Shown here in pieces: positions 3,756 to 18,101 of a DNA stretch of 64,000 nucleotides (its first letter is position 1; each line of letters opens with the position of its first letter). Location: the NCBI RefSeq assembly GCF_041821045.1, contig NZ_JBGUAW010000002.1, positions 186,001 to 250,000 on the forward strand. Reading direction: 5' to 3'. A model generated the notes under the pieces. That model was not told where the DNA came from. It made no database searches and worked only from the letters and a program-made list of their open reading frames with translations. This DNA comes from Thiohalorhabdus sp. Cl-TMA. GTDB lineage: Bacteria > Pseudomonadota > Gammaproteobacteria > Thiohalorhabdales > Thiohalorhabdaceae. A program made the translations under genes and the position numbers.

Positions 3756-4925
3756 TCAGGAAGCTTCCAGGGGGTGACCGGCGAGGCTCCAGGGCTTGCC
3801 CGTGAGGAGACGGACCAGCTCCGTCTGGCGGGAGGTCCCGGTCTTGCCCAGGATGCGCTTGAGGTGGGTGCGCAGGGTCTCGCGGGAGATATTCCATCCC
3901 TCGCTCAGGCTGTTCAGGTCGTGGCCTCGCGACAGGGCGCCCGCCAGGCGGGCTTCGGTGGGTGTCAGGCCGTAGAGGCCGATGAGGATCTCGTGGTTGA
4001 GGAGGCCGGCGTCGGCGAGGTTGCTGACGAAGATCGCCGCGTTGGCCGTGGGCCACGGGCCCCGGAAATACGGCAGGGTGGGCGGAATGGGGCAGGCCAC
4101 CAGCAGGAGCTGCGGTTCCCCGGGGCCCGGAGTGAGCAGCAGGGTTTCCGGTATGGGGGCATCCCCGGACGCCGCCCGGCTGCGGACCAGGCCGAGCAGG
4201 CCCCGCAGCCGCTCCGCATCCGCCCCGCTGGTGGCCATCAGGCGGCCCTGCATATCGGCGAGGCCGCAGCGGTTGCGGAGCAGGGCGTCGGCTTTGCTGT
4301 TGGTGTGGAAGATCTGCTCCTGCTCGTCGAGCAGGATGACCCCCACCGCCAGCGATTCCAGGCCCTGCTCCGCGGCCGCGGTCTGCTGCCGGGCCAGATC
4401 CAGCAGGTGGCCCAGCCGGGCGGCGCGCTGGATGTGGGGCACGAAGCGGCGGATGAAATCGGCGTCACCCCGGGAGAAGGGGCCGGTGCGCCGATCCCGC
4501 TGGAGGCCGAACTTGATGGTGAATTCCTCGTTGCGCATGGCCAGGCCGCCGCAGACGTGGTAGCTGTCCTGCGGCTGCATGTAGTCGGCGAAGAACTCGG
4601 TCCGCTGCAGCTGCTTCAGGCTGAGGTATTGCTCGCCCGGGGCGATGAAGCCGGCGGGCTGGCCGCGCAGGGCCTCTATGAAGATGTCCCGGTTCACGTA
4701 GTACTGGCGGTGGGCCTCCTGGAGCTCCGGGTCCAGGTTGTAGTGCACGTTGGCGCGCACTGCCGGCAGGCGCTCGTCGATCACCCGGAACATGCCCGAT
4801 TTGGCGTTCAGCGCCTCCGCCAGGCCGCGCAGGAAAATCCGCCACTGGCCGGGGTCCAGGGCCGATTCGTAGACGGCCTCGAGCAGGGTCGAGAACGTAT
4901 CGATGCCGGGGACATTACCGCCCAT
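3756..4925 (-). CDS. LuxR-type transcriptional regulator (paralogue A)
   Basis: A 389-residue regulator. The last ~70 residues are a LuxR/GerE helix-turn-helix (YGLTPTEARLAGALSRG, then ISRETLRTHLKRILGKTG). The N-terminal half is a sensory-type region starting GIDTFSTLLEAVYESALDP, with no autoinducer-binding signature that I recognise. The start is the ATG at 4925, just after the hydrolase gene; the frame is open further upstream but only as the shadow of that gene. It closely resembles the regulator encoded at 5796-6995 in domain order and in several blocks, so the two look like duplicates. The three genes run in the same direction with gaps or overlaps under 30 bases and are probably one transcript. 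The ligand is unknown. Confidence 0.85.
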   Translation of the reverse strand: MGGNVPGIDTFSTLLEAVYESALDPGQWRIFLRGLAEALNAKSGMFRVIDERLPAVRANVHYNLDPELQEAHRQYYVNRDIFIEALRGQPAGFIAPGEQYLSLKQLQRTEFFADYMQPQDSYHVCGGLAMRNEEFTIKFGLQRDRRTGPFSRGDADFIRRFVPHIQRAARLGHLLDLARQQTAAAEQGLESLAVGVILLDEQEQIFHTNSKADALLRNRCGLADMQGRLMATSGADAERLRGLLGLVRSRAASGDAPIPETLLLTPGPGEPQLLLVACPIPPTLPYFRGPWPTANAAIFVSNLADAGLLNHEILIGLYGLTPTEARLAGALSRGHDLNSLSEGWNISRETLRTHLKRILGKTGTSRQTELVRLLTGKPWSLAGHPLEAS

Positions 4926-4954
4926 GGGTGCCCTCCCGGGCCGCCTTCGCGGCG

Positions 4955-5818
4955 CTATGCGGGTGCCAGGTCGGCAAGGATCTCCATCCGGCGTCCGAAG
5001 GACGCGAAGTGGGCCGCGCCGGGCCATTCCGTCAGCTCTGCCTCCGGCAGATGGCGGGCCAGCCAGCGCCCCATGCCCACCGGGGCGTTGACGTCGCCGT
5101 CGCCGTGCCAGAGGCGGACCGGGCAGCGAATCTCCGCCACGTCGAAGTCCCAGGGCGCGATGAGCGCCGCGGCGTCCTCTAGCATGCCGTCGAGCCCCTG
5201 CCGCATGGCCTCCTCCAGGCTGCGACGGTAGGCGGCGGCCACCGCCGCGTCCTCGAAGATCGCCCGGTCCGCCTCCGGCGCCCCGCCGACGAGCAGATCG
5301 TAGGCGCCGCCCATGGCCGACACCGCCTCCCCCAGGGCGTGCGCGAAGGCCGGGAAGTCCGCCTCTGCCAGCTCCCAGAGCTGGCGATTGGCGTCCGCCA
5401 TCCCCTCCAGGCCGGCCCGCTGGAAGGGCGCCCAGCTGCTCACCAGGGTCAGGCTCAGGACCCGGCGGGGAAACCGCTGCGCCAGGGCGAGGGCGTGGGG
5501 GCCGCCGCCGGAGAACCCCAGGACGTCGAAGGTCTCCAGGTCCAGCCGGTCGGCCAGGGCCTCCACGTCCGCGGCCTCCTCGCCGAGGGTTCGCCCGGCT
5601 CGGGGGTCGGTGCCGCCGTAGCCCGGCCGGTCGGGGACGATGAAGCGTAGCCCGGCATCCGCGGGCACCCCGTCGCCGGGGAACGGCTCCAGGCGCGAGC
5701 CGGGCATGCCGTGGCAATAGACCACCGGCCGGCCCCGGGGGTCGCCGTACTCCCTCCAGGCGACCCGGCGTCCGCCGGGCAGGTGGAGGGTCCGGTCACA
5801 TAGCGTATCCGCCCGCAT
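4955..5818 (-). CDS. Alpha/beta hydrolase
   Basis: A 287-residue alpha/beta-hydrolase without a signal peptide, so presumably cytoplasmic. Visible elements are the oxyanion-hole HGMPGS (residues 36-41), DRPGYGGT (63-70), the nucleophile elbow GFSGGG with Ser103, a probable acid near residue 240 (HGDGD) and the catalytic His at about residue 270 (GAAHF). The substrate cannot be told from sequence. It sits between two paralogous LuxR regulators, overlapping the upstream one by 23 bases, which suggests that it makes, degrades or modifies a molecule those regulators respond to. That link is inference from position only. Confidence 0.88.
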   Translation of the reverse strand: MRADTLCDRTLHLPGGRRVAWREYGDPRGRPVVYCHGMPGSRLEPFPGDGVPADAGLRFIVPDRPGYGGTDPRAGRTLGEEAADVEALADRLDLETFDVLGFSGGGPHALALAQRFPRRVLSLTLVSSWAPFQRAGLEGMADANRQLWELAEADFPAFAHALGEAVSAMGGAYDLLVGGAPEADRAIFEDAAVAAAYRRSLEEAMRQGLDGMLEDAAALIAPWDFDVAEIRCPVRLWHGDGDVNAPVGMGRWLARHLPEAELTEWPGAAHFASFGRRMEILADLAPA

Positions 5819-6995
5819 GGCGGTCCTCCTTCGCCGTTCGCTCCGCCGTCAGCCTCCAGGATGCCCCGGAAAGCAGGCGCACCAGCTCGGTCTGGCGGCG
5901 CACTCCGGTCTTGCTGAATACGGCTTTCAGCTGGGTACGCAGGGTATGGGGGGAAATGGACCACTCCCGGCTCAGCTCCTGCAGGTCCCGACCCCGGGCC
6001 AGGGACATGGCCAGCCGGGTCTCCGCGGGGGTCAGCCCGTACAGGGTGGCCAGGGACTCGGCACGCAGGACGCCGGTATCGTCCAGGTCGCCCACATAGA
6101 GCGCGACGCGGGCGGTGGGCCAGGCTTGCCGGTAGTACTCACGATGCTCGGGAACCGGGTAGGCCACGGCCAGCAGGCGTTCCGATCCCCCGGTATCGCC
6201 CTGGAGGAGCATGGTTTCCGCCGCAGGCGGGCCGTTCCCGGAGGCTGCCGCCCGGGCGCGGGCCAGGAGCGCGGAGAGGGCGTCGCATTGTTCGGCGTCC
6301 CGGGCTCCCAGGTGCCCGCCGGATCGCATGCGCAGTCCGCGGCCGTGGCGCAGCAGGCGGTCGCCGCTCGGGTTGGCGTGCACCACCCGGGTCTCATCGT
6401 CCAGCAGGAAGGTGGCGATGGACAGCTTGTCCAGCGCCCGCTCCGCGGATTCGGCGCGCAGCGTCTGCAGGTCGAGCATGCGCTGCAGGCCGATGGAGCG
6501 CTGGATGTGCGGGACCAGGAGCTGTACCGCCTCCAGGTGCTCGCGCTCGAAGGGCGTGCTGCCATGGTGCCGGTGGACGCCGAAGATGGTGCTGCGCGTT
6601 TCTTCCCGCTGCACGAAGCCGCCGACGATGAACTGGTTGTCCAGCGGGCGCATGTAGTGGTTGTAGAAGGAGGTGCTCTGCAGGCTCCGCCGGTCCAGGA
6701 CCTGTTCGTCGGTGACCATCCGCCCGGGTGGCAGGCGGCGGAGCGCCGCCAGATAGGGGTCGAGCTGGACGAGATGGGCGCAGTACTCGTCCTGCAGGTT
6801 CGGATCGAGGTTGTGGTGGTAGCTCATCAGGACCCTGGGCGGTCCTTCGAGGTCAATGGTCCGGATCAGGGCGGACTTGGCGTCCAGGGCCGCGGCGATC
6901 GCGGCCAGAAAGCGCGTCCAGCTCTCGGGGTCGGTGGCCGCCCCATAGATCAGGTCGATGAGCCCGGCGAGCCGCTGGTTGTCCAGGGTGGTCAT
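5796..6995 (-). CDS. LuxR-type transcriptional regulator (paralogue B)
   Basis: A 399-residue protein with a C-terminal LuxR helix-turn-helix (YGLTPAETRLAMSLARG and SPHTLRTQLKAVFSKTG). Its N-terminal sensory-type region matches that of the regulator at 3756-4925 in blocks such as ATDPESWTRFL, NLDPNLQDEY and the YMRPLDN segment. The start is placed at the ATG at 6995, which follows a GAGGGGACC ribosome-binding site; an ATG nine codons upstream (7022) is an alternative. It is the first gene of the regulator-hydrolase-regulator cassette and overlaps the hydrolase start. No ligand or target can be named. Confidence 0.84.
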   Translation of the reverse strand: MTTLDNQRLAGLIDLIYGAATDPESWTRFLAAIAAALDAKSALIRTIDLEGPPRVLMSYHHNLDPNLQDEYCAHLVQLDPYLAALRRLPPGRMVTDEQVLDRRSLQSTSFYNHYMRPLDNQFIVGGFVQREETRSTIFGVHRHHGSTPFEREHLEAVQLLVPHIQRSIGLQRMLDLQTLRAESAERALDKLSIATFLLDDETRVVHANPSGDRLLRHGRGLRMRSGGHLGARDAEQCDALSALLARARAAASGNGPPAAETMLLQGDTGGSERLLAVAYPVPEHREYYRQAWPTARVALYVGDLDDTGVLRAESLATLYGLTPAETRLAMSLARGRDLQELSREWSISPHTLRTQLKAVFSKTGVRRQTELVRLLSGASWRLTAERTAKEDRHAGGYAM

Positions 6996-7185
6996 GTCGG
7001 CTGGTCCCCTCTGCCCGGCCATGTCCCGGTGCCCCCGGATCCCTGGCCGGGATCCGGGCCGGGCAGGCGCCCCCCCTGCACATGCCGCCGGATGGCTGTC
7101 GCCCGCTTTCGCCTACAATCTATGCATATTTTCCCGCCATGGAAAGCCCCCGGGAGTCCGCTGTCCGAAGGTATCCGGATGGCGG

Positions 7186-9345: not shown

Positions 9346-9975
9346 CTACAGATCCGGCAGCCCGCGCAGGGTGAAGGGCGTGAAGCCGACCCGCTTCCGG
9401 CTCTCCACGCGGGTAACCTTGAAGCGCAGCCGGTACCCGGAGACCCGGAAGGCGTGCAGGATCCGGATCTCGGCGAATCGCTCCTCCCGGTCGGGGGGCT
9501 TGCCGATGTCGAAGAAGAGCACGCCCTGGTAGGTGGCGCCGGGAGCGATCACCCGCTCGCTGAAGTGGATTTCGCCCAGATAGGTGTGGATCCGCTCCGC
9601 GGTCTTCCGCCGCTTTACACCGTATTCGGTCTCGATGACACCGGCGACGCGATCCACCGGCACGGGATCCACCACCCGGCCGTACTCGTGGAGCAGGAAA
9701 TCGGCGGGCCGCACCCGGATGCCTCGCTCCCCGTGGTTGGACACGGTGATGTTCACGGGGAGGATCCCCGCCTCGGGCAGTGCGACGCCGAAATAGCGGC
9801 GGGCGCGGCGCCCCTGTCCGATGGTGTCCACGGCCACCGAGACGCCCTGGCGCGTCCGCGAGGTGGGATAGACGTCGGCGTCCCGCTTGGGGATGCGGAC
9901 CACCTCGTAGGAATGGGACGCGCAGCCAGCCAGGGCCAGTAGTGTCGCCAGAGCGAGGGACGCTACGCGCAGCAT
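9346..9975 (-). CDS. Lipoprotein of unknown function
   Basis: A 209-residue predicted lipoprotein. The signal peptide ends in the lipobox LAGC with Cys18 as the lipidated residue. The mature part reads like an immunoglobulin-like or DUF4352-type beta domain (GILPVNITVSNHGERGIRVR, later APGATYQGVLFFD), a pattern seen in small exported domains that interact with proteins or surfaces. No catalytic residues are evident and I cannot name a function. It converges on the exported protein at 8325 across a terminator, and lies 90 bases after the end of the antiporter operon on the same strand, so read-through is possible. Confidence 0.75.
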   Translation of the reverse strand: MLRVASLALATLLALAGCASHSYEVVRIPKRDADVYPTSRTRQGVSVAVDTIGQGRRARRYFGVALPEAGILPVNITVSNHGERGIRVRPADFLLHEYGRVVDPVPVDRVAGVIETEYGVKRRKTAERIHTYLGEIHFSERVIAPGATYQGVLFFDIGKPPDREERFAEIRILHAFRVSGYRLRFKVTRVESRKRVGFTPFTLRGLPDL

Positions 9976-10065: not shown

Positions 10066-11796
10066 TCAGGATCCCGCGCCCGGTGGGAACAGGGCCCAGG
10101 CGAGGGCGGCGAGAATCAGCAGGAACGCGGCGCCGCTGGTGCCCCAGCCCCAGCGATCGGCGGCCGTGAGGCGCTGGCGGCTCGGCAGCCACAGATGGGT
10201 GTAGACAGCCACCCAGATCCGGTTGTAGGGCCGCCAGAGGGCGCCGAGCGGTTGCCACAGGCCCGTGGTCCGCTTCCCCAGCCAGCGGGTGCCGGCCTCC
10301 AGGCCGGCATAGAGGTCGCCGGCCGGAATCGGCGGGATCCCGGGCAGGCGAAAGCGCTTGGCGGCCCATGCCCAGGCGAGTCCGAGAAGGGCTGCCGCCA
10401 CCACCGGCTGGAGCCCGTCCACGAGCTCCGCGGCGGAGAGGGTCTTGAGGTTCCAGTAGCTCAGGCGCGGCCAGAGCCAGGGCAGCAGCAGGGAGGCCGC
10501 CACCACCGCCCCCCACCAGGCCAGTGCTCGGGCGTCCAGCCCCCGGCCGGCCCCGCCGCCGCGGAGCACCACCAGGAAGCGCACCATGAGCAGGGTGGTG
10601 GCGGCCGCGCCCGCGGTCAGCAGGGTGGCGAAGTCCCAGGCCGCCAGGCCCGGGGTATGGGTCAGGGCCTCCTTGAGCCCCTTCTTGGCCGCCCCGCCGG
10701 AGGTGCCCGGCAGCCCCGCGATGGCCAGGGCGGGAAGGACCACGGCGGTCCAGAGGAGCACCCGCCCGAACCGGCCGCCCGCCCGTTCTCCGGTTACGGC
10801 GGTGGAGAGGAACAGGGCCCCCTTCGCCAGGCCGTGGTGGAAGGCGTAGGCGAGCACGGCCGGGAGCAGTCCGCTCCAGGCCGCCGGTGCCGCCATCCCG
10901 GCGCCCACCGCCGCCGCCAGCCAACCCATCTGGCTGATGCTGGAATAGGCCAGCACCGTCTTGGGGTCGCGCTGGGGGAGCCCCACCGCCACCGCCAGGA
11001 AGGCCCCGGCCAGGCCCAGCGCGATGAGCACCCGGCCGAGCTCCGGAAAGGCTGCCTCCCCAAGGGGCAGGAAGCGGATCCAGCCCAGCAGGCCCGCCTT
11101 GATCATGGTGCCGGACAGCACGGCGCTCGCCGGGGCCGGGGCGGCGGGATGGGCCAGGGGCAGCCAGAAATGCAGGGGGACCAGACCCGCCTTGGAGCCC
11201 AGCCCGGCGATCAGCAGGAGGGCGCCAGCCGTCGTCCCGCCGCCTCCCGCCATCAGTAGCAGGCCGGCGAGCACGAGCACCTCCCCGCCCGCGGTGGCCC
11301 CCAGGTAGACGTTGGCGGCATGGCGGGCGAAGGGGGTGCCGGAATGGACCACCAGTCCGTAGGCCGGCAGGCCCATGAGCGTGAAGAAGGCCAGGAAGCT
11401 CACCGGGTCCTGGGCCACGGTCAGTCCCAGATTGCCGGCCATGGCGGCGAGGAAGAAGCCCGGATAGGCCTTGCGGCCGGCGTCGGCGCCCAGGTAGCCG
11501 CGGCTGAACCCGGCCGCCGCCGTCCAGAGGATGGCCGCCAGGAGCAGGAATACGCGGCCCACCGGGTCCATGGCGAAGCGGGTGCCGGTCAGCATCCAGG
11601 GCCACTGGACGGCCGTTCCGTCGGCCACCAGCAGGCCGGCGGCCAGGGCCGGCAGTCCCCAGAGGGGCGCCCACCCCATTCCCGGCCCGCGCCCCCGCGG
11701 CAGGGCCAGCAGGAGCAGCCCCAGCAGCGGGGCCAGCCAGGCGCCGAGGAGCAGCGGTTCCCCCCAGGAAGCGGGCAGCGCCGTCAGCGGAGCCAT
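10066..11796 (-). CDS. NuoL/MrpD-type antiporter-like membrane subunit (third copy)
   Basis: A 576-residue multi-spanning protein of the NuoL/NuoM/NuoN/MrpA/MrpD superfamily of ion-translocating subunits. The superfamily Lys is present in GLGSKAGLVPLHFWLP and the later HHGLAKGALF motif is intact. The helix that normally carries a conserved Glu (E in FFIFYELLTL of the neighbouring subunit) reads FLAFFTLMGL, so Thr139 replaces it. The C-terminal ~120 residues form an extension ending in a membrane helix. The ATG at 11796 lies 13 bases inside the previous gene. It is the last gene of the operon. The missing Glu suggests altered or absent ion translocation by this copy. Confidence 0.85.
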   Translation of the reverse strand: MAPLTALPASWGEPLLLGAWLAPLLGLLLLALPRGRGPGMGWAPLWGLPALAAGLLVADGTAVQWPWMLTGTRFAMDPVGRVFLLLAAILWTAAAGFSRGYLGADAGRKAYPGFFLAAMAGNLGLTVAQDPVSFLAFFTLMGLPAYGLVVHSGTPFARHAANVYLGATAGGEVLVLAGLLLMAGGGGTTAGALLLIAGLGSKAGLVPLHFWLPLAHPAAPAPASAVLSGTMIKAGLLGWIRFLPLGEAAFPELGRVLIALGLAGAFLAVAVGLPQRDPKTVLAYSSISQMGWLAAAVGAGMAAPAAWSGLLPAVLAYAFHHGLAKGALFLSTAVTGERAGGRFGRVLLWTAVVLPALAIAGLPGTSGGAAKKGLKEALTHTPGLAAWDFATLLTAGAAATTLLMVRFLVVLRGGGAGRGLDARALAWWGAVVAASLLLPWLWPRLSYWNLKTLSAAELVDGLQPVVAAALLGLAWAWAAKRFRLPGIPPIPAGDLYAGLEAGTRWLGKRTTGLWQPLGALWRPYNRIWVAVYTHLWLPSRQRLTAADRWGWGTSGAAFLLILAALAWALFPPGAGS

Positions 11797-13280
11797 GTGC
11801 CGAACTCCCGGGTGGTGATGAGGTTGGCCCACTGCAAGGCGCTGAAGGGCATCTTGGCCAGGAGGCCCAGGAGCAGCGACAGGGCCGCGGTGGCGAGCGG
11901 CGGCGCCAGAAGCATCCAGTGCGCCTCGAAGCGGCGGTGCGAGGCGGGCCATTCGCGCTCCGCCGGCCGGAACCAGCCCACGTAGAGCACCGGAAGGAAG
12001 TAGGCGGCATTGAGCAGGCTGCTCAGCGCCAGGACCGGGATCACCCAGCCCAGCCCGGTCTCCAGGCCGCCCAGCCCCAGGTACCACTTGGTGATGAAGC
12101 CCGCCGTGGGCGGCACGCCGATCATGCCCAGCGCCCCCACCGTGAAGGCGGCCATGGTCCCGGGCATGCGCTGGCCGATGCCGGCCATCTCGGAGACCCG
12201 GTGGACGCCCAGGGTCTCGGCGAAGGCCCCGGCGCAGAAGAACAGGGTGATCTTCATGACGCCCTGATGGACCAGGTGCACCAGGCCGCCCACGGTGGCG
12301 GTGGTGCCGCCCAGGGCCACGCCCAGGGTGATGTAGGCCACCTGGCTGATGGTGGAATAGGCCAGGCGGCGCTTGAGGTAATCCTGGAAAAGCGCCCGCA
12401 GAGAGCCGTAAACGATGGTGGCGGCGGCCATGTAGGCCAGGGGACGGCCCAGACCGAGCGCGGTGACCAGGTCGATTCCGTAGACCTCCTCCACTACCCG
12501 CACGATGCCGAAGGCGCCCGCCTTGACCACGGCCACGGCGTGCAGGAGGGCGCTCACCGGTGCCGGTGCCACCATGGCGATGGGTAGCCAGCCGTGCAGG
12601 GGCAGCAGGGCGGCCTTCACGCCCATGCCGCCCACCAGCAGGGCGAAGATGACGCTCAGGGTAGCCGGGCTGGCCGTGCCAGCATTCAGGACGCCGCCCC
12701 GGGTGAACTCCACTGGACCGATAAGGCTCTGCAGCCAGGCCAGGCCCACCAGCAGGGCGAGGCCGCCGGCCAGGGTGTAGCCGAGATAGGTCTGGCCCGC
12801 CTGGAGGGATTCCGCGGTGCCGCGATGCACCACCAGCGGGTAGGTGGCCAGGGTCAGCAGCTCGTAGAAGATGAAGAAGGTGAACAGGTTGCCGGCGAAT
12901 GCGATTCCCAGGGTGGCGCTCACGCAGAGGCTGAAAAAGCTAAAGAAGCGGCTGCGGTGCGGGGCGCCCTCCAGGTAGCCGATGGCGTAGATGGTGGTCA
13001 GGAGCCACAGCACCGCCGAGAGTCCGGCCAGGAACAGGGCGAGGGGGTCGGCGCGCAGGAAGATCTCCATGCCGGCCACGAAGGGCACCCGCAGGGCGTA
13101 AGTGAATCCGCGGGCGGCCTCCTCGATGAGCACGGTCACCACCACCACTTGCAGGGTCGCCCCCGCCAGGTTCAGTGCCGTGCGCAGGCGGTGGCGCTCC
13201 TCGGCGAGGAAGGCGATGACCACCCCCGGGCCCAGTGCGGAGAGCACCGCCAGTGGCAGGAGCAGGGCGCCGGGCGTCAA
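11784..13280 (-). CDS. NuoL/MrpD-type antiporter subunit (second copy)
   Basis: A 498-residue polytopic membrane protein of the Mrp/complex I antiporter superfamily. It carries the conserved Glu in FFIFYELLTLATY (Glu140) and the conserved Lys in GVKAALLPLHGWLP, followed by APAPVSALLHAVAVVKAG. The start is taken as TTG at 13280, forming a TTGA overlap with the stop of the preceding subunit; no better start is visible and the membrane segments begin immediately after it. It overlaps the next gene by 13 bases. In the complex it should form one of the proton or sodium channels. Confidence 0.87.
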   Translation of the reverse strand: MTPGALLLPLAVLSALGPGVVIAFLAEERHRLRTALNLAGATLQVVVVTVLIEEAARGFTYALRVPFVAGMEIFLRADPLALFLAGLSAVLWLLTTIYAIGYLEGAPHRSRFFSFFSLCVSATLGIAFAGNLFTFFIFYELLTLATYPLVVHRGTAESLQAGQTYLGYTLAGGLALLVGLAWLQSLIGPVEFTRGGVLNAGTASPATLSVIFALLVGGMGVKAALLPLHGWLPIAMVAPAPVSALLHAVAVVKAGAFGIVRVVEEVYGIDLVTALGLGRPLAYMAAATIVYGSLRALFQDYLKRRLAYSTISQVAYITLGVALGGTTATVGGLVHLVHQGVMKITLFFCAGAFAETLGVHRVSEMAGIGQRMPGTMAAFTVGALGMIGVPPTAGFITKWYLGLGGLETGLGWVIPVLALSSLLNAAYFLPVLYVGWFRPAEREWPASHRRFEAHWMLLAPPLATAALSLLLGLLAKMPFSALQWANLITTREFGTWLR

Positions 13281-14737
13281 GGCCGGCCCGCCCCGAGCCC
13301 CCGCATGAGGGGCTCCAGAACCGGCGCCAGGAAGCCCATGCCCAGGGCCCCCAGGGCGAGCAGCAGGGCGGAGATCTCCATGATCCGGGGCGGGACGCGC
13401 GCCAGGTCGGCGGGCTCGGTGCGGGCGTCGAAGACCTGCACCAGTACGCGGAAGACGTAGCCCACCGCCAGGAAGGTCCCCAGGGCGATCACCACCAGCC
13501 AGATCCAGGCCCCGGCCGCCGCCATGGAGCGCAGCAGGAGCCACTTGCCCACGAAGCCGCCCGTGGGCGGCAGGCCGATGAGGCTGATCCCGCACAGGGC
13601 GAAGGCCGCGGTGGAGATGGGCAGCCGGCGGAGGACCCCGCCGATGCGGTCGAGCTCGTCGCCGCCCCCCGTCCACAGGCAGGTTCCCGCCACCAGGAAG
13701 GCGCCGCCCTTGGCCAGGCCGTGAGACACGGCCAGGTAGAGGGCTCCGTCCCGACCCAAGCCCGCGGCGGCGCCGGGAAGGCTCATGAGCGGAAAGGCCA
13801 GGAACAGATACCCCAGCTGCGCCACCGTGGAGTAGGCCACCAGCAGCTTGAGCCTGGGCGCGGCGAGGGCCTGGAAGGAGCCCCAGACCACGGCCACGGC
13901 GCCCAGCCCGCCGAGCAGCGCGGTTCCAGGCGCCAGAGGCCAGCCCGAATAGGCCTCGAACCAGAGGCGCAGCAGCAGGAAGAAGCCCGCCTTGACCACC
14001 AGGGCCGACAGTACCGCGCTCACCGGGCCCGGGGCGCGGCTGTGCGCCGTGGGCAGCCAGAAATGCAGCGGGAACAGGGCGGTCTTCATCAGCAGGCCGG
14101 CCGTCATCACCGCAAGCGCAGCCGCTCCCGCGGGCCCCGGCTGCAGGGCCGCCGCCATGGCCGACAGGTCGAGGACCCCGTAGCGGCCGTACAGCAGGGC
14201 CACGCCCAGCAGGTAGGCCAGCGAGCCGGCGAGACTCACCAGCAGGTAGCGCAGAGCGGCACGCAGGGCGCCGGTGCTCCCGGCCACCGCCACCAGGGCC
14301 ACCGCGGAGAGGCTGATCAGCTCCAGGCAGATGTAGGCGTTGAAGGCGTCCCCCGTGAGGAACAGGGCGTTCAGACCGGCCCAGAGCATCCACCACAGGG
14401 GCCAGAAGGCGCGCTCCCGGCGGTCGGCGTCGCCGCGTCCGCCGGATCCCGCCCAGTAGCCGCGGGCGTAGAGCGTCGTCAGGGTGGTGACGGCGGCGGT
14501 GAGCCCCAGCATCAGGAGGCCGAGGGCGTCCAGCTGCAGCGCGATGCCCGGCGGGCCCCAGGCGCCCACGGGGTAGCGCTCGGGTCCGGCGGTGAGCAGA
14601 CGCTGGCCGGCGCCGACCAGCGCGATCACAATCCCGGCGGGCCCCGCCACCGCCAGAAAGCGGCGCAGCTCCGGAGCGACGAAGACCAGCAGGGAAACCG
14701 ACAGCGGCACGGCCACCAGGGCAACCGCGAAGACCAT
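13277..14737 (-). CDS. mrpD: MrpD/NuoN-type antiporter subunit (first copy)
   Basis: A 486-residue polytopic subunit of a Mrp-type monovalent cation/proton antiporter in the inner membrane. Key residues are visible: Glu139 in ICLELISLSA, Lys in LLMKTALFPLHFWLP, and SHGLAKGGAF. It follows the MrpC-like subunit by 3 bases and overlaps the next antiporter-like gene at TTGA. Its place directly after mrpC corresponds to the usual mrpD position. It is the most MrpD-like of the three copies by position, though I could not build a tree. Confidence 0.88.
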   Translation of the reverse strand: MVFAVALVAVPLSVSLLVFVAPELRRFLAVAGPAGIVIALVGAGQRLLTAGPERYPVGAWGPPGIALQLDALGLLMLGLTAAVTTLTTLYARGYWAGSGGRGDADRRERAFWPLWWMLWAGLNALFLTGDAFNAYICLELISLSAVALVAVAGSTGALRAALRYLLVSLAGSLAYLLGVALLYGRYGVLDLSAMAAALQPGPAGAAALAVMTAGLLMKTALFPLHFWLPTAHSRAPGPVSAVLSALVVKAGFFLLLRLWFEAYSGWPLAPGTALLGGLGAVAVVWGSFQALAAPRLKLLVAYSTVAQLGYLFLAFPLMSLPGAAAGLGRDGALYLAVSHGLAKGGAFLVAGTCLWTGGGDELDRIGGVLRRLPISTAAFALCGISLIGLPPTGGFVGKWLLLRSMAAAGAWIWLVVIALGTFLAVGYVFRVLVQVFDARTEPADLARVPPRIMEISALLLALGALGMGFLAPVLEPLMRGLGAGRP

Positions 14738-14740
14738 GCC

Positions 14741-15043
14741 TCAATCCTCCCCGTCGCCGCGGTGCTCGGCGGCGTGGATGCGCCGGATCAGCGCCAGGGC
14801 CAGGGCGGTGGCGCTTACCGCCACCACGATGCCGGTGAGGACCAGGGCATGGGGCACCGGGTCGGGTGCTGTCCCTCCGGAACGGTAGGCCAGGGAAACC
14901 AGGATCAGGAAGGTTCCCCCGCCGGCCACGTTGAGGCCGAGCACCTTGCGCAGGAAGCGGGGGCGCACCAGCAGCGCGTGGAGGCCCAGGAAGAACAGCA
15001 GTATGCCGGTGGCTCCGAAGATCAGGTCGGGTGGCGGGGTCAT
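14741..15043 (-). CDS. mrpC: MrpC / NuoK-like subunit
   Basis: A 100-residue protein with three predicted membrane helices (GATGILLFFLGLHALL; KVLGLNVAGGGTFLILVSL; HALVLTGIVVAVSATALALAL), the usual size and layout of MrpC, the NuoK homologue of Mrp antiporters. The pair PHALVLTGIVV is characteristic. Its ATG overlaps the stop of the preceding fused subunit (ATGA), so the two are translationally coupled. It acts in the inner-membrane complex. Confidence 0.88.
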   Translation of the reverse strand: MTPPPDLIFGATGILLFFLGLHALLVRPRFLRKVLGLNVAGGGTFLILVSLAYRSGGTAPDPVPHALVLTGIVVAVSATALALALIRRIHAAEHRGDGED

Positions 15044-15975
15044 GGGGTCGCCTCCCCGTCGCGGGCCGGCGGGCTGGTGGCCTCGAACAGCACCACCAGC
15101 ACGGCGGCCAGGGAGAGCGTGGCCGCCGTCTCGATGGCCAGCACCAGCCAGCCCTGCCAGGGCGGCGGATAAGCGAGGAAGGAGCCGGTGGCGCCCATCA
15201 CGCCCAGACCCACCGCCAGGAAGAAGGCGGTGCCGAGCACGGCCAGGGCGGCGCGCGGCCGGGGGTGGTGAAGCAGCGGCAGGGGGAAGCCGCCGAGGCG
15301 CAGCAGGATTCCCGCCGCGGCCAGCACCGCGGCCGCCTGGAAGGCCCCGCCGGTGGCGGTGCTGCCGTTCCACAGGAGCGCCCCGGCCACCACCACCATG
15401 ACCGGAACCAGGAGCCGCACCAGGCCCCGGAGCACCTCGGGCGCCGGGTGCGCGGCCGTGGCCAGGGGCCGGCCCAGGATCCAGACGCCCATCAGGGCCT
15501 CCACCAGCACCGCCGTCTCCAACAGCGTGTCATAGCTGCGCACGTCCAGGAGTACGGCGGTGACCGGATTGTCGAGCTTGCCCGTGTCGGGGAGCGGCGG
15601 TGCGGACGGCGGCGCGCCCAGAAGCAGCCGGCCCATCAGGACCACCATGAGCAGGGCCAACAGGCCGGCGACCAGTCCGGCCAGCCGACGGGCCGTCTCG
15701 GTCCGGGGCCCGGCCCGGGGCTCCTCGTCGGCGGGATGGGTCTCCATCCGGGCCAGGGTGTTGAGGTACAGTGCTCCGGTGACCCCGGCGCCGATGGCCG
15801 CCTCCGCGAGGGCCACGTCGGGCGCGTCCAGGCGCAGCCAGGTCACCGCCAGCAGCAGCCCGAAGACGATAAACTGGACGCCCGCCTGGAACAGGTCGTC
15901 CACCCGCAGCAGGCGCCAGGCGAGCCACAGGAGCAGTCCCGCCAGCAGCCCGTCCATGGCCGCCGTCAGGATCAC
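15040..15975 (-). CDS. Fused MbhD/MbhE-MrpB subunit (MrpA C-terminal part plus MrpB)
   Basis: A 311-residue membrane protein that joins parts usually separate. The first ~70 residues match the MbhD/MrpA C-terminal helix pair (LRLDAPDVALAEAAIGAG). Residues about 95-150 correspond to MbhE, with a periplasmic loop ending in NPVTAVLLDVRSYDTLLETAV. The rest is an MrpB domain (GGAFQAAAVLAAAGILLRL). In classical bacterial Mrp these belong to the large MrpA and to MrpB. Here the NuoL-like half of MrpA is absent from this gene. The ATG overlaps the preceding mrpG by four bases. Confidence 0.82.
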   Translation of the reverse strand: MILTAAMDGLLAGLLLWLAWRLLRVDDLFQAGVQFIVFGLLLAVTWLRLDAPDVALAEAAIGAGVTGALYLNTLARMETHPADEEPRAGPRTETARRLAGLVAGLLALLMVVLMGRLLLGAPPSAPPLPDTGKLDNPVTAVLLDVRSYDTLLETAVLVEALMGVWILGRPLATAAHPAPEVLRGLVRLLVPVMVVVAGALLWNGSTATGGAFQAAAVLAAAGILLRLGGFPLPLLHHPRPRAALAVLGTAFFLAVGLGVMGATGSFLAYPPPWQGWLVLAIETAATLSLAAVLVVLFEATSPPARDGEATP

Positions 15976-16274
15976 GGATCGGCGCCTCCGGAGGAGCGGC
16001 GGACCGCGAGGCGGGCCAGGAGGGTGGCCAGGGGCGCGCTGGCGGCCATGGCCAGCAGCCAGATGACCACCAGGATGCCCGCCTCGCCGGCCGTTTCCGC
16101 GCGAAGGGCCAGACCCAGGATGAGCAGGCCGAGGCCCAGATTGTCCGCCTTGGTCAGGGCGTGCATGCGCGTCAGGGTATCGGGAAAGCGGAGCAGCGCC
16201 ACGGCCCCGGCGGCGAAGAAGAATACGCCCGCAGCCATGGCCAGCAGTCCCAGGGTCTCAGCCATCGCCACCAT
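15972..16274 (-). CDS. mrpG: MrpG subunit
   Basis: A 100-residue protein with three predicted helices and the MrpG signature LLRFPDTLTRMHALTKADNL, followed by LGLGLLILGLAL. MrpG is a small subunit of Mrp-type cation/proton antiporters. The ATG at 16274 overlaps the end of mrpF by 17 bases; the ATG at 16265 is an alternative start. It overlaps the next gene at ATGA. Confidence 0.9.
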   Translation of the reverse strand: MVAMAETLGLLAMAAGVFFFAAGAVALLRFPDTLTRMHALTKADNLGLGLLILGLALRAETAGEAGILVVIWLLAMAASAPLATLLARLAVRRSSGGADP

Positions 16275-16524
16275 CCCGTTCAGGCGGGTGGAACCGGCGG
16301 GCGAAGGCGGCGCCGGAGACGGCGGCGAGAAGCGCCAGCACCAGGGCCACCACCAGGGCCCCGGATGGGCTCCCGCTATTCAGGGTGAGGGCCACCGCCA
16401 CGCCCGCCGAGCCCATGAGCTGGGCCACCAGCATGCGGTCCACGGAGCCGGGGCCGTACACCAGGCGACCCAGACTGACGGTCGCCACCAGGAGCAGGGC
16501 CAGGGCGAGGGCATCCTCGATCAC
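16258..16524 (-). CDS. mrpF: MrpF subunit
   Basis: An 88-residue protein with three predicted helices and the MrpF pattern VYGPGSVDRMLVAQLMG (family: GPs..DRv.al). The start is GTG at 16524, overlapping the mrpE stop as GTGA; the longer open frame upstream is only a shadow of mrpE. MrpF is an essential small membrane subunit of Mrp antiporters and is also linked to solute efflux in some rhizobia. Confidence 0.87.
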   Translation of the reverse strand: MIEDALALALLLVATVSLGRLVYGPGSVDRMLVAQLMGSAGVAVALTLNSGSPSGALVVALVLALLAAVSGAAFARRFHPPERDGGDG

Positions 16525-17000
16525 GGTGACCGCTCCGTGGAGGTGCCGAACACGGCGGCGACGCGCGCCTCCAGGATGGCCAGCTCCGCATCCGGGGAAG
16601 CGGTGCGGTCGAGAACGTGGATGGTCATGCCCTCGGCCTCTTCGCCGACGGACAGCGTGCCCGGCAGCAGATTGACCACGTTGCCGAAGAACAGGCGGGC
16701 CGGCCCGGGCGGCAAGCGGCACGGATAGGTAATGTGGCCCGGGGCCAGTGGCAGGGCGGGATGGAAGGCCCGCAAGGCCACGTCCCAGCCGCCGCGCAGG
16801 GAATGGAAGAGAAAGAACGGCAGGAAGGCCAGCGCCGCCACCGGATGAATGGCGCGCTCCTGGTCGGGCCGGAGGCCGTGGGCGGCCAGGGCGCCCGCCG
16901 CGACGAAGGGGCCGCCGATGATCCAGGAGATCGGTGCTCCCCCCGTCAGCAGGATCCAGAGGCCGGCCAGCGCCGCGCCAAAAAGCAGGGTTCTGACCAC
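16521..17000 (-). CDS. mrpE: MrpE subunit, first gene of the antiporter operon
   Basis: A 159-residue protein with N-terminal membrane helices (LLFGAALAGLWILLTGG; ALAFLPFFLFHSL) and the MrpE C-terminal domain (NVVNLLPGTLSV, MTIHVLD). It opens the run mrpE-F-G-(D'E'B)-C-D-D-D, all on the minus strand with overlaps of 4-17 bases or gaps of 3. This gene order is that of archaeal Mbh modules rather than mrpABCDEFG. The 96 bases upstream, before the GGDEF gene, must contain the promoter. The complex should exchange sodium or other cations for protons. Confidence 0.88.
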   Translation of the reverse strand: MVRTLLFGAALAGLWILLTGGAPISWIIGGPFVAAGALAAHGLRPDQERAIHPVAALAFLPFFLFHSLRGGWDVALRAFHPALPLAPGHITYPCRLPPGPARLFFGNVVNLLPGTLSVGEEAEGMTIHVLDRTASPDAELAILEARVAAVFGTSTERSP

Positions 17001-17096: not shown

Positions 17097-18101
17097 TCAG
17101 GGGAAGTGGATCTCGGCGCGGTTGTGCACCCACGCCCACGCCGCGATCCGGTCGCGGCCGGAATTCTTCGCCTTGTAGAGGGCCTGGTCCGCTTCCCGGA
17201 ACAGCTGCTCGTAGTCCCGGCCCGGCTGGTCGGCGTGCTGGGCGGTGATGCCCACGGAGGCGGTGACCGGCGGAGCCAGGGCCAGTGAGGCGATACGCCG
17301 GCGCAGGCGCTCGGCGCGCAGCACGGCCTGGCCGATGTCCGCCTGGTCCAGGACCACCACGAACTCCTCGCCGCCGTAGCGGGCGATCAGGTCCACTTCC
17401 TGGAACTCCTCCTCCAGGGTCTGGGCCACCGCCTTCAGGGTCCGGTCGCCGTACTCGTGGCCGAAGGAATCATTGATATATTTGAAGTGGTCCAGGTCCA
17501 CCACCAGGAGGGCCAGGGGCCGGCCCGTGCTCCGGGCCTGCTCTAGGAGGGCCGGGGCCTCGTTGTTGAGGAAGCGCTTGTTGTAGAGGTTGGTAAGGCC
17601 GTCGGTGACGGAGAGGCGCTCCATGGCCTTCTTCTGCGTGTAGAGCTTCTTGTAGGCGTGGCGCAGGGCCAGGAGGTTGTGGAGCCGGGCATAGAGCTCC
17701 TCGGGATGGAAGGGCTTGTAGACGAAATCGTTGGCGCCGGCTCGCAGGCTGCTGATGCGGTGGTCGGTCTCCTCGGCGCTCGTGAGCATGAGCACCGGCA
17801 GGAGGGCCAGGTCGTCGTCCCGGGCGCGGATGCGCTTCACGAGGTCGAGGCCCGTGAGCCGGCCGTCGAGGAAGAAATCCGACAGGACCAGGTCGAGCTC
17901 GGAGCCGAGGATCTGTAGCGCCTCCTCGGCGGTGGTCACGTGCCGTACCTGGAGGCCGAACTGCTCCAGGTAATGGACGGTTACCGCCGCGGAGGTCTGA
18001 CTGTCCTCCACGAACAGCAGCCGGCCCCGCAGGCTCTGCTCCTCCCAGGGCTTGCGCTCCGGCTCCGGCCTCGGAGCCATCGGGGGGGTAGATGTGGTCA
18101 T
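17097..18101 (-). CDS. REC-GGDEF response regulator, probable diguanylate cyclase
   Basis: A 334-residue cytoplasmic signalling protein. Residues ~27-145 form a receiver domain with phosphoacceptor Asp75 (LVLSDFFLDG) and the Thr/Lys switch residues (MLTSAE, VYKPF). Residues ~165-330 form a GGDEF domain with active site RYGGEEF (243-247 GGEEF), expected to make cyclic di-GMP. The inhibitory I-site RxxD is not intact: the position of its Arg is Gln234 (QEVD), so product inhibition through that site may be lost. No kinase gene is adjacent. Its ATG lies 26 bases from a 12-base G run. Confidence 0.92.
   Translation of the reverse strand: MTTSTPPMAPRPEPERKPWEEQSLRGRLLFVEDSQTSAAVTVHYLEQFGLQVRHVTTAEEALQILGSELDLVLSDFFLDGRLTGLDLVKRIRARDDDLALLPVLMLTSAEETDHRISSLRAGANDFVYKPFHPEELYARLHNLLALRHAYKKLYTQKKAMERLSVTDGLTNLYNKRFLNNEAPALLEQARSTGRPLALLVVDLDHFKYINDSFGHEYGDRTLKAVAQTLEEEFQEVDLIARYGGEEFVVVLDQADIGQAVLRAERLRRRIASLALAPPVTASVGITAQHADQPGRDYEQLFREADQALYKAKNSGRDRIAAWAWVHNRAEIHFP

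Follow-up and report, generated by a model that had tools for sequence, protein, structure and literature searches.

What does an Mrp-type operon do that encodes three antiporter-like subunits, no full-length MrpA and no catalytic enzyme? The question is raised by an eight-gene array in a 64,000-nucleotide stretch of the Thiohalorhabdus sp. Cl-TMA genome (contig NZ_JBGUAW010000002.1, positions 186,001 to 250,000; hereafter the window), which runs on the minus strand from 17000 down to 10066 and, according to its open reading frames (ORFs) and start codons, has the order mrpE-F-G-(MbhD/MbhE/MrpB fusion)-C-D1-D2-D3, D1 to D3 being the three large subunits. Each gene overlaps its neighbour by 4-17 nt or lies within 3 nt of it, so that the eight genes very likely form a single operon. 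Group 3 Mrp systems are defined by the absence of mrpA and the presence of one or more mrpD genes, and the stand-alone Mrp of P. furiosus, mrpEFGBB'CD, is one of them (PMC8415708). With no mrpA, MrpE, F, G, B and C encoded in one operon and three Proton_antipo_M proteins, the window operon has, judged by its gene content, this already known architecture. We consider it probable that it encodes a stand-alone group 3 Mrp-type cation/proton antiporter in which D3 would be a terminal, differently gated channel, a reading supported because all Mrp modules overlap in one operon, their order is conserved and no catalytic genes accompany them; the transport, its ion and stoichiometry, the subunit positions and the role of the residue exchange described below are what we infer from comparison. 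The operon looks ordinary for many bacteria, and the residue exchange in D3 seems to be its new part.

A displaced carboxylate in D3

In Mrp antiporters a glutamate on transmembrane helix (TM) 5 of the large subunits is needed for activity, which is abolished by the exchanges E140A in MrpA and E137A in MrpD (PMC5703873), and this residue is central to coupling models (PMC7419157). D3 (10066..11796, minus strand; 576 amino acids, aa; Pfam Proton_antipo_M, 1.8e-29) carries T139 in its place and a glutamate, Glu172, on TM6, while K202, K233, K325 and K371 are retained. A pattern search of GTDB contigs gave at least 506 matching stretches, of which 80 were kept; locus counts out of 80 refer to these. 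The TM5 site of D3 is Ala, Thr, Ser, Gly or Val and never Glu in 85 of 85 sequences, a count that is partly selected since one of the search patterns covered this site. All 85 have Glu on TM6, in the column of NuoL Asp178, and the channel lysines are present on TM7 (85/85), TM8 (80/85) and TM12 (85/85). TM5 Glu is retained in D1 (76/77, with one gap; E139 in the window operon) and in D2 (80/80); the TM5 Glu-TM7 Lys pair of the group 1/2 Mrp mechanism is thus present in D1 and D2 and not in D3.

Because a search pattern had covered the TM5 site, the test was repeated on D3 proteins found by profile and on operons chosen blind to D3. With the D3 profile, relatives were detected in 20 of the 369 genomes sampled from the class, and in this set, itself gathered through D3, TM5 Glu is absent from 29 of 29 proteins, with 28 Glu and one Asp on TM6. 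The blind sample was located solely through the fusion protein and comprised 19 operons outside the window, 12 of the window type and seven of a paralogous type; the exchange occurs in 12/12 of the former, the only set free of D3 information, versus 0/7 of the latter. The paralogous type is also represented in the same genome, by a second group 3 Mrp operon with three antiporter-like subunits on contig C1 (L017:3026-10380; G000:C1 ~121000-128380). Its order, E-F-G-DE-B-C-D-D'-86 aa-D'', is similarly Mbh-like, with an extra gene for an 86-aa protein between D' and D'', and its last subunit retains TM5 Glu.

The best NCBIfam match of D3 is the hydrogenase-4 subunit HyfB, which we rejected as its origin: HyfB, HyfD, HyfF and HycC of E. 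coli all have TM5 Glu, as do NuoL, NuoM and NuoN. A parallel is offered by DabB2, which lacks Glu144 and retains a Lys/Asp ion pair between TM7 and TM6, and for which the loss of Glu144 was read in a 2026 structure paper as adapting the subunit to proton transfer (PMC13144422). The published ion pair of NuoL is Lys229/Asp178, with Lys235/Asp185 as its DabB2 counterpart (PMC13144422), and because of this precedent Lys202 of D3 should pair with Glu172. No published report of the D3 exchange was found in the literature searched, which excluded most subscription journals; for Mrp systems with several MrpD subunits or of group 3, the same literature yielded just the group 3 papers cited here. The moved carboxylate is the most unusual point of the operon and had gone unnoticed in a preliminary description made from the DNA sequence.

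Relationships and number of the large subunits

That description had proposed a tree of the large subunits, in which placement of all three inside complex I clades would have spoken against an Mrp assignment. In two trees, the D1 proteins make up a clade nested in a wider group with MrpD, MbhH, MbsH and NuoN (support 97-98), those of D2 a separate clade that unites with D2 from operons of the paralogous type (99-100), and those of D3 another separate clade on a long branch (100); none of the three falls inside the NuoL or NuoM clades. D3 as a relative of NuoL or DabB finds no support in either tree, and its deep placement is uncertain owing to the long branches. D1 (13277..14737, minus; 486 aa; Proton_antipo_M, 4.3e-48) is an MrpD/MbhH-type subunit whose best match among Protein Data Bank (PDB) chains is MbhH (6cfw_H, 2e-50). 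D2 (11784..13280, minus; 498 aa, TTG start; Proton_antipo_M, 1.1e-53) carries a histidine of the NuoL/MrpA type at residue ~246-247; this column, NuoL H254, is conserved in NuoL and MrpA and not in MrpD, NuoM or NuoN (PMC4938563), and it is His in 80/80 D2 proteins.

The AlphaFold model of D3 has a predicted local distance difference test (pLDDT) of 87.7 and a predicted template modelling score (pTM) of 0.88; its nearest solved fold is E. coli NuoL (Z 39, 458 residues, 3.0 Å), and its predicted C-terminus, TM15-amphipathic helix-TM16, has the NuoL-like topology. The absence of a full-length MrpA had been noticed before, and one of the extra copies was thought to replace its NuoL-like half. The absence is borne out, a canonical MrpA-B fusion of 947 aa being encoded elsewhere in the genome, and Pfam and NCBIfam place no N-terminal NuoL-like half on the MbhD/MbhE/MrpB fusion. 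The replacement is too simple: D2 does carry the NuoL/MrpA histidine, but the NuoL-like C-terminal topology belongs to D3, and D3 is the copy kept in two-subunit operons.

Most operons encode D1, D2 and D3. D1 and D3 alone occur in L054, L158, L189, L193 and L194, whereas four antiporter-like subunits, with tandem D3 genes, are found in Thiobacillus (L113:7306-10623 and L133:7306-10617); neighbouring D3 pairs are also present in G309 and G361. From homology and the D1+D3 operons we infer that D1 would adjoin the cation module, D3 would be terminal and D2 would be an insertable middle unit. As an observation apart, another gammaproteobacterium encodes an orphan D3-type subunit (L056:4059-5888; Ser on TM5, Glu on TM6) downstream of a MoxR/vWA-like cluster, with no other Mrp gene nearby.

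Based on these comparisons, we propose the following hypothetical scheme, in which (i) the proton motive force would drive an Mrp-like exchange, protons entering via D1, D2 and D3 and Na+ (or K+) being expelled via the module of E, F, G, fusion and C; (ii) D1 would occupy the place of MrpD/MbhH beside this cation module, D3 would lie with its NuoL-like tail at the end of the array, and D2 would be inserted between them like the middle subunit of complex I; (iii) the Lys-carboxylate switch of D3 would be rebuilt, the lost TM5 Glu giving way to a Lys202/Glu172 (TM6) pair like Lys229/Asp178 of NuoL and Lys235/Asp185 of DabB2; (iv) D3 would still conduct protons, with a different coupling to the TM12 lysine of the neighbouring subunit, and would act as an end channel that raises the number of H+ per cation, and with it the driving force, instead of repeating the switch of D1 and D2.

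If D3 were instead a non-conducting structural end cap or regulatory subunit, the D1-D2 pair would carry all proton transport, like MrpD with the N-terminal part of MrpA. Such a role would agree with the missing TM5 Glu, whose loss abolishes MrpA and MrpD activity (E140A and E137A; PMC5703873), and with the faster evolution of D3, which shares 64% identity within the genus versus 81% for D2 and has longer branches in the trees. However, the channel lysines and the equally conserved new carboxylate are kept across D3, which is unexpected for a mere cap, and several operons drop D2 yet retain D3, so that we regard this alternative as unlikely. Several points weigh against the proposed antiporter reading as a whole, in addition to the selection behind the 85/85 and profile-found counts: the D3 tail past residue ~520 is modelled with low confidence, some D3 proteins (Marinobacter) are only ~495 aa long, the subunit positions are drawn from homology and the D1+D3 operons, and the cation module deviates from that of canonical Mrp, as described below.

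More tentatively, and with less confidence than in the antiporter assignment itself, we suggest that the operon may belong to a widespread bacterial Mrp lineage in which the family-wide move of the D3 carboxylate from TM5 to TM6 created a terminal channel that is gated differently. Since the array is modular, its large subunits numbering from two to four, its H+/cation stoichiometry may follow gene number, and the two-, three- and four-subunit operons would allow H+/Na+ stoichiometry to be compared with array length. How distant proton channels are coupled in complex I and Mrp is disputed, and the models give the TM5 Glu/TM7 Lys pair a central part; the D3 family, which naturally drops TM5 Glu and keeps the TM6 carboxylate constant, would make it possible to ask at which position the carboxylate matters and whether channels fire jointly. 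The two residues at TM5 and TM6 could also serve as a marker for sorting antiporter-like genes, which frequently carry annotations as subunits of NADH dehydrogenase.

Distribution, catalytic partners and the transported ion

By record title, the relatives come, among others, from Gamma- and Betaproteobacteria (Marinobacter, Ectothiorhodospira, Thioalkalivibrio, Halomonas, Nitrosomonas, Thiobacillus), Desulfobulbaceae, Nannocystis, Myxococcus, Verrucomicrobia, Planctomycetes, Chloroflexi, Rubrobacter, Gemmatimonadetes and Bacteroidetes; no D2 relative was found in viral contigs. Profile mapping of every ORF recovered the order E-F-G-DEB-C-D1-D2-D3 in most of the 80 loci and in many phyla, a conservation far above chance. 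In some loci (Bacteroidetes, several Chloroflexi) mrpE is relocated to the 3' end, and the MbhD/E and MrpB parts form one fused protein in some loci and two open frames in others. The preliminary description had called the order that of archaeal Mbh modules and not bacterial; the likeness to Mbh stands, whereas the restriction to Archaea does not, as this is a published group 3 arrangement that is widespread in bacteria (PMC8415708, PMC7784846).

The P. furiosus group 3 Mrp shares with the window operon the order E-F-G-B-B'-C-D, the MbhD/E and MrpB domains and the lack of both mrpA and an energy-input module (PMC8415708). It has one antiporter-like subunit, in contrast to three in the window operon, in which MbhD/E and MrpB are fused and D3 carries the moved carboxylate. 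Another related system is the stand-alone group 3 locus of Ca. Nitrospira alkalitolerans, where mrpD is followed by two NuoM/NuoL-like genes that its authors read as additional mrpA/mrpD-like genes; the passages on this locus that were consulted make no mention of a residue swap (PMC7784846). With canonical Mrp of groups 1 and 2 (Bacillus, Anoxybacillus, Dietzia) the operon shares the modules and key lysines, an MrpD-like D1 and, in D2, the MrpA/NuoL histidine; it differs in lacking MrpA and the MrpC histidines, in having three large subunits instead of two and in a D3 without TM5 Glu. The complex I membrane arm (NuoL/M/N) likewise has three antiporter-like subunits, and D3 resembles NuoL in fold and in its TM6 carboxylate (Asp178 in NuoL), but the operon has no Q or N module, D2 and D3 lie outside the NuoL/M/N clades, and NuoL has TM5 Glu144 as well.

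Could the operon nevertheless be the membrane arm of an Mbh/MBS-like redox complex whose catalytic subunits are encoded elsewhere, as the preliminary description allowed? The Mbh-like order, the MbhG/MbsG-like C subunit and the MbhH-like D1 would fit. The genome, 99% complete, comprises 3.74 Mb in 45 contigs and contains 16 antiporter-domain matches: three in the window operon, three on C1, MrpA and MrpD on C9, two sets of NuoL/M/N and two DabB-like proteins. Those on C9 belong to a canonical group 2 Mrp (L018, G000:C9), with the MrpA-B fusion accompanied by C, D, E, F and G, and complex I is encoded by two separate operons on C5 and C8 (L019, L020). Of 49-kDa and NuoH homologues the genome has just two each, one of either kind in each complex I (nuo) operon, so that the window operon is left with no orphan catalytic subunit as a partner. 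Nor does the operon itself contain the hydrogenase-like/49-kDa large subunit and NuoH-like protein that mark Mbh and MBS, in agreement with the earlier remark that no catalytic gene is attached; catalytic genes at the other end of the transcript, which that description had named as a finding contrary to its reading, are absent as well. Searches with E. coli proteins found no NuoD, NuoF, NuoG or NuoH homologue near the operon in the 80 relatives, and one weak NuoI-like match (L150, E 0.001). As P. furiosus has a group 3 Mrp that stands alone (PMC8415708) and these searches leave no partner, we rejected a redox complex as highly improbable.

The DabB-like proteins of this genome are encoded in DabB/DabA-like pairs (L021:5519-11077 on G000:C14; L022:2916-7051 on G000:C4), presumed inorganic-carbon pumps that suggest a CO2-concentrating autotroph. 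No DabA-like ORF was spotted by eye beside the window operon or among the recurrent neighbours of the 80 loci, though no PF10070 search was made.

In the cation module, Asp149 and Glu153 of the fusion align with the Asp and Glu of the MrpA FDTLGE motif and are invariant in 27 full-length fusions. MrpC H37 and H40, which adjoin the proposed Na+ path (PMC7419157), are missing in the window-operon family (72 members aligned with B. pseudofirmus MrpC), so that this family may use a different ion or a different cation path. Transport of another ion (K+, Ca2+), or uptake of inorganic carbon with D3 acting like DabB, would also draw on the Ca2+ transport by Thermomicrobium Mrp (PMC5703873), the bicA gene at the Nitrospira group 3 locus (PMC7784846) and the pattern common to D3 and DabB, namely loss of TM5 Glu with a TM6 carboxylate retained beside the TM7 Lys/Arg (PMC13144422). 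Yet D3 has the TM12 lysine that is missing from DabB of this genome, and the two stand apart in both trees. The genes that recur around the 80 loci, whose clusters were judged by eye, included no recognisable inorganic-carbon transporter. We hold these alternatives to be improbable, slightly more so than the end cap, and favour the Na+(K+)/H+ antiporter with a conducting D3.

Smaller genes of the operon and its surroundings

For the genes preceding D1, all on the minus strand, Pfam and NCBIfam agree with the ORFs and with the gene order first described. mrpE (16521..17000; 159 aa, GTG start) matches Pfam MNHE (8.7e-22), and mrpG (15972..16274; 100 aa) matches PhaG_MnhG_YufB (2.4e-20). Between them lies mrpF (16258..16524; 88 aa, GTG start), for which the Pfam scan of the operon proteins gave no match; it was assigned from its position, NCBIfam subunit F models (~1e-6) and the family-conserved Asp29/Arg30. 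The MbhD-MbhE-MrpB fusion (15040..15975; 311 aa) combines a NuoJ-like module with MrpB (Pfam MbhD, 2.9e-16; MnhB, 3.9e-10) and matches MbhD (6cfw_D), MbsD (6u8y_D) and MbsE (6u8y_E) among PDB chains. The MbhG/MbsG-like mrpC (14741..15043; 100 aa) matches Oxidored_q2 (4.3e-15), with 6u8y_G and 6cfw_G as best PDB matches.

Downstream of D3, a lipoprotein gene (9346-9975) was rejected as an operon member, having no Pfam or NCBIfam family and no counterpart beside the operons of L053-L056, L017 and L018. Upstream, 96 bp from mrpE and on the same strand, lies a response regulator-GGDEF gene (17097-18101, minus), whose position is conserved in the same-genus relative L053 (79% identity). In about eight loci, mostly L084, L085, L089, L092, L104, L113, L133, L147 and L153, the operon has upstream of it an ORF resembling universal stress proteins (~327 aa). 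Further along the window (3756-7022, minus), a reading by eye places an alpha/beta hydrolase-like gene between two similar LuxR-type regulator-like genes.

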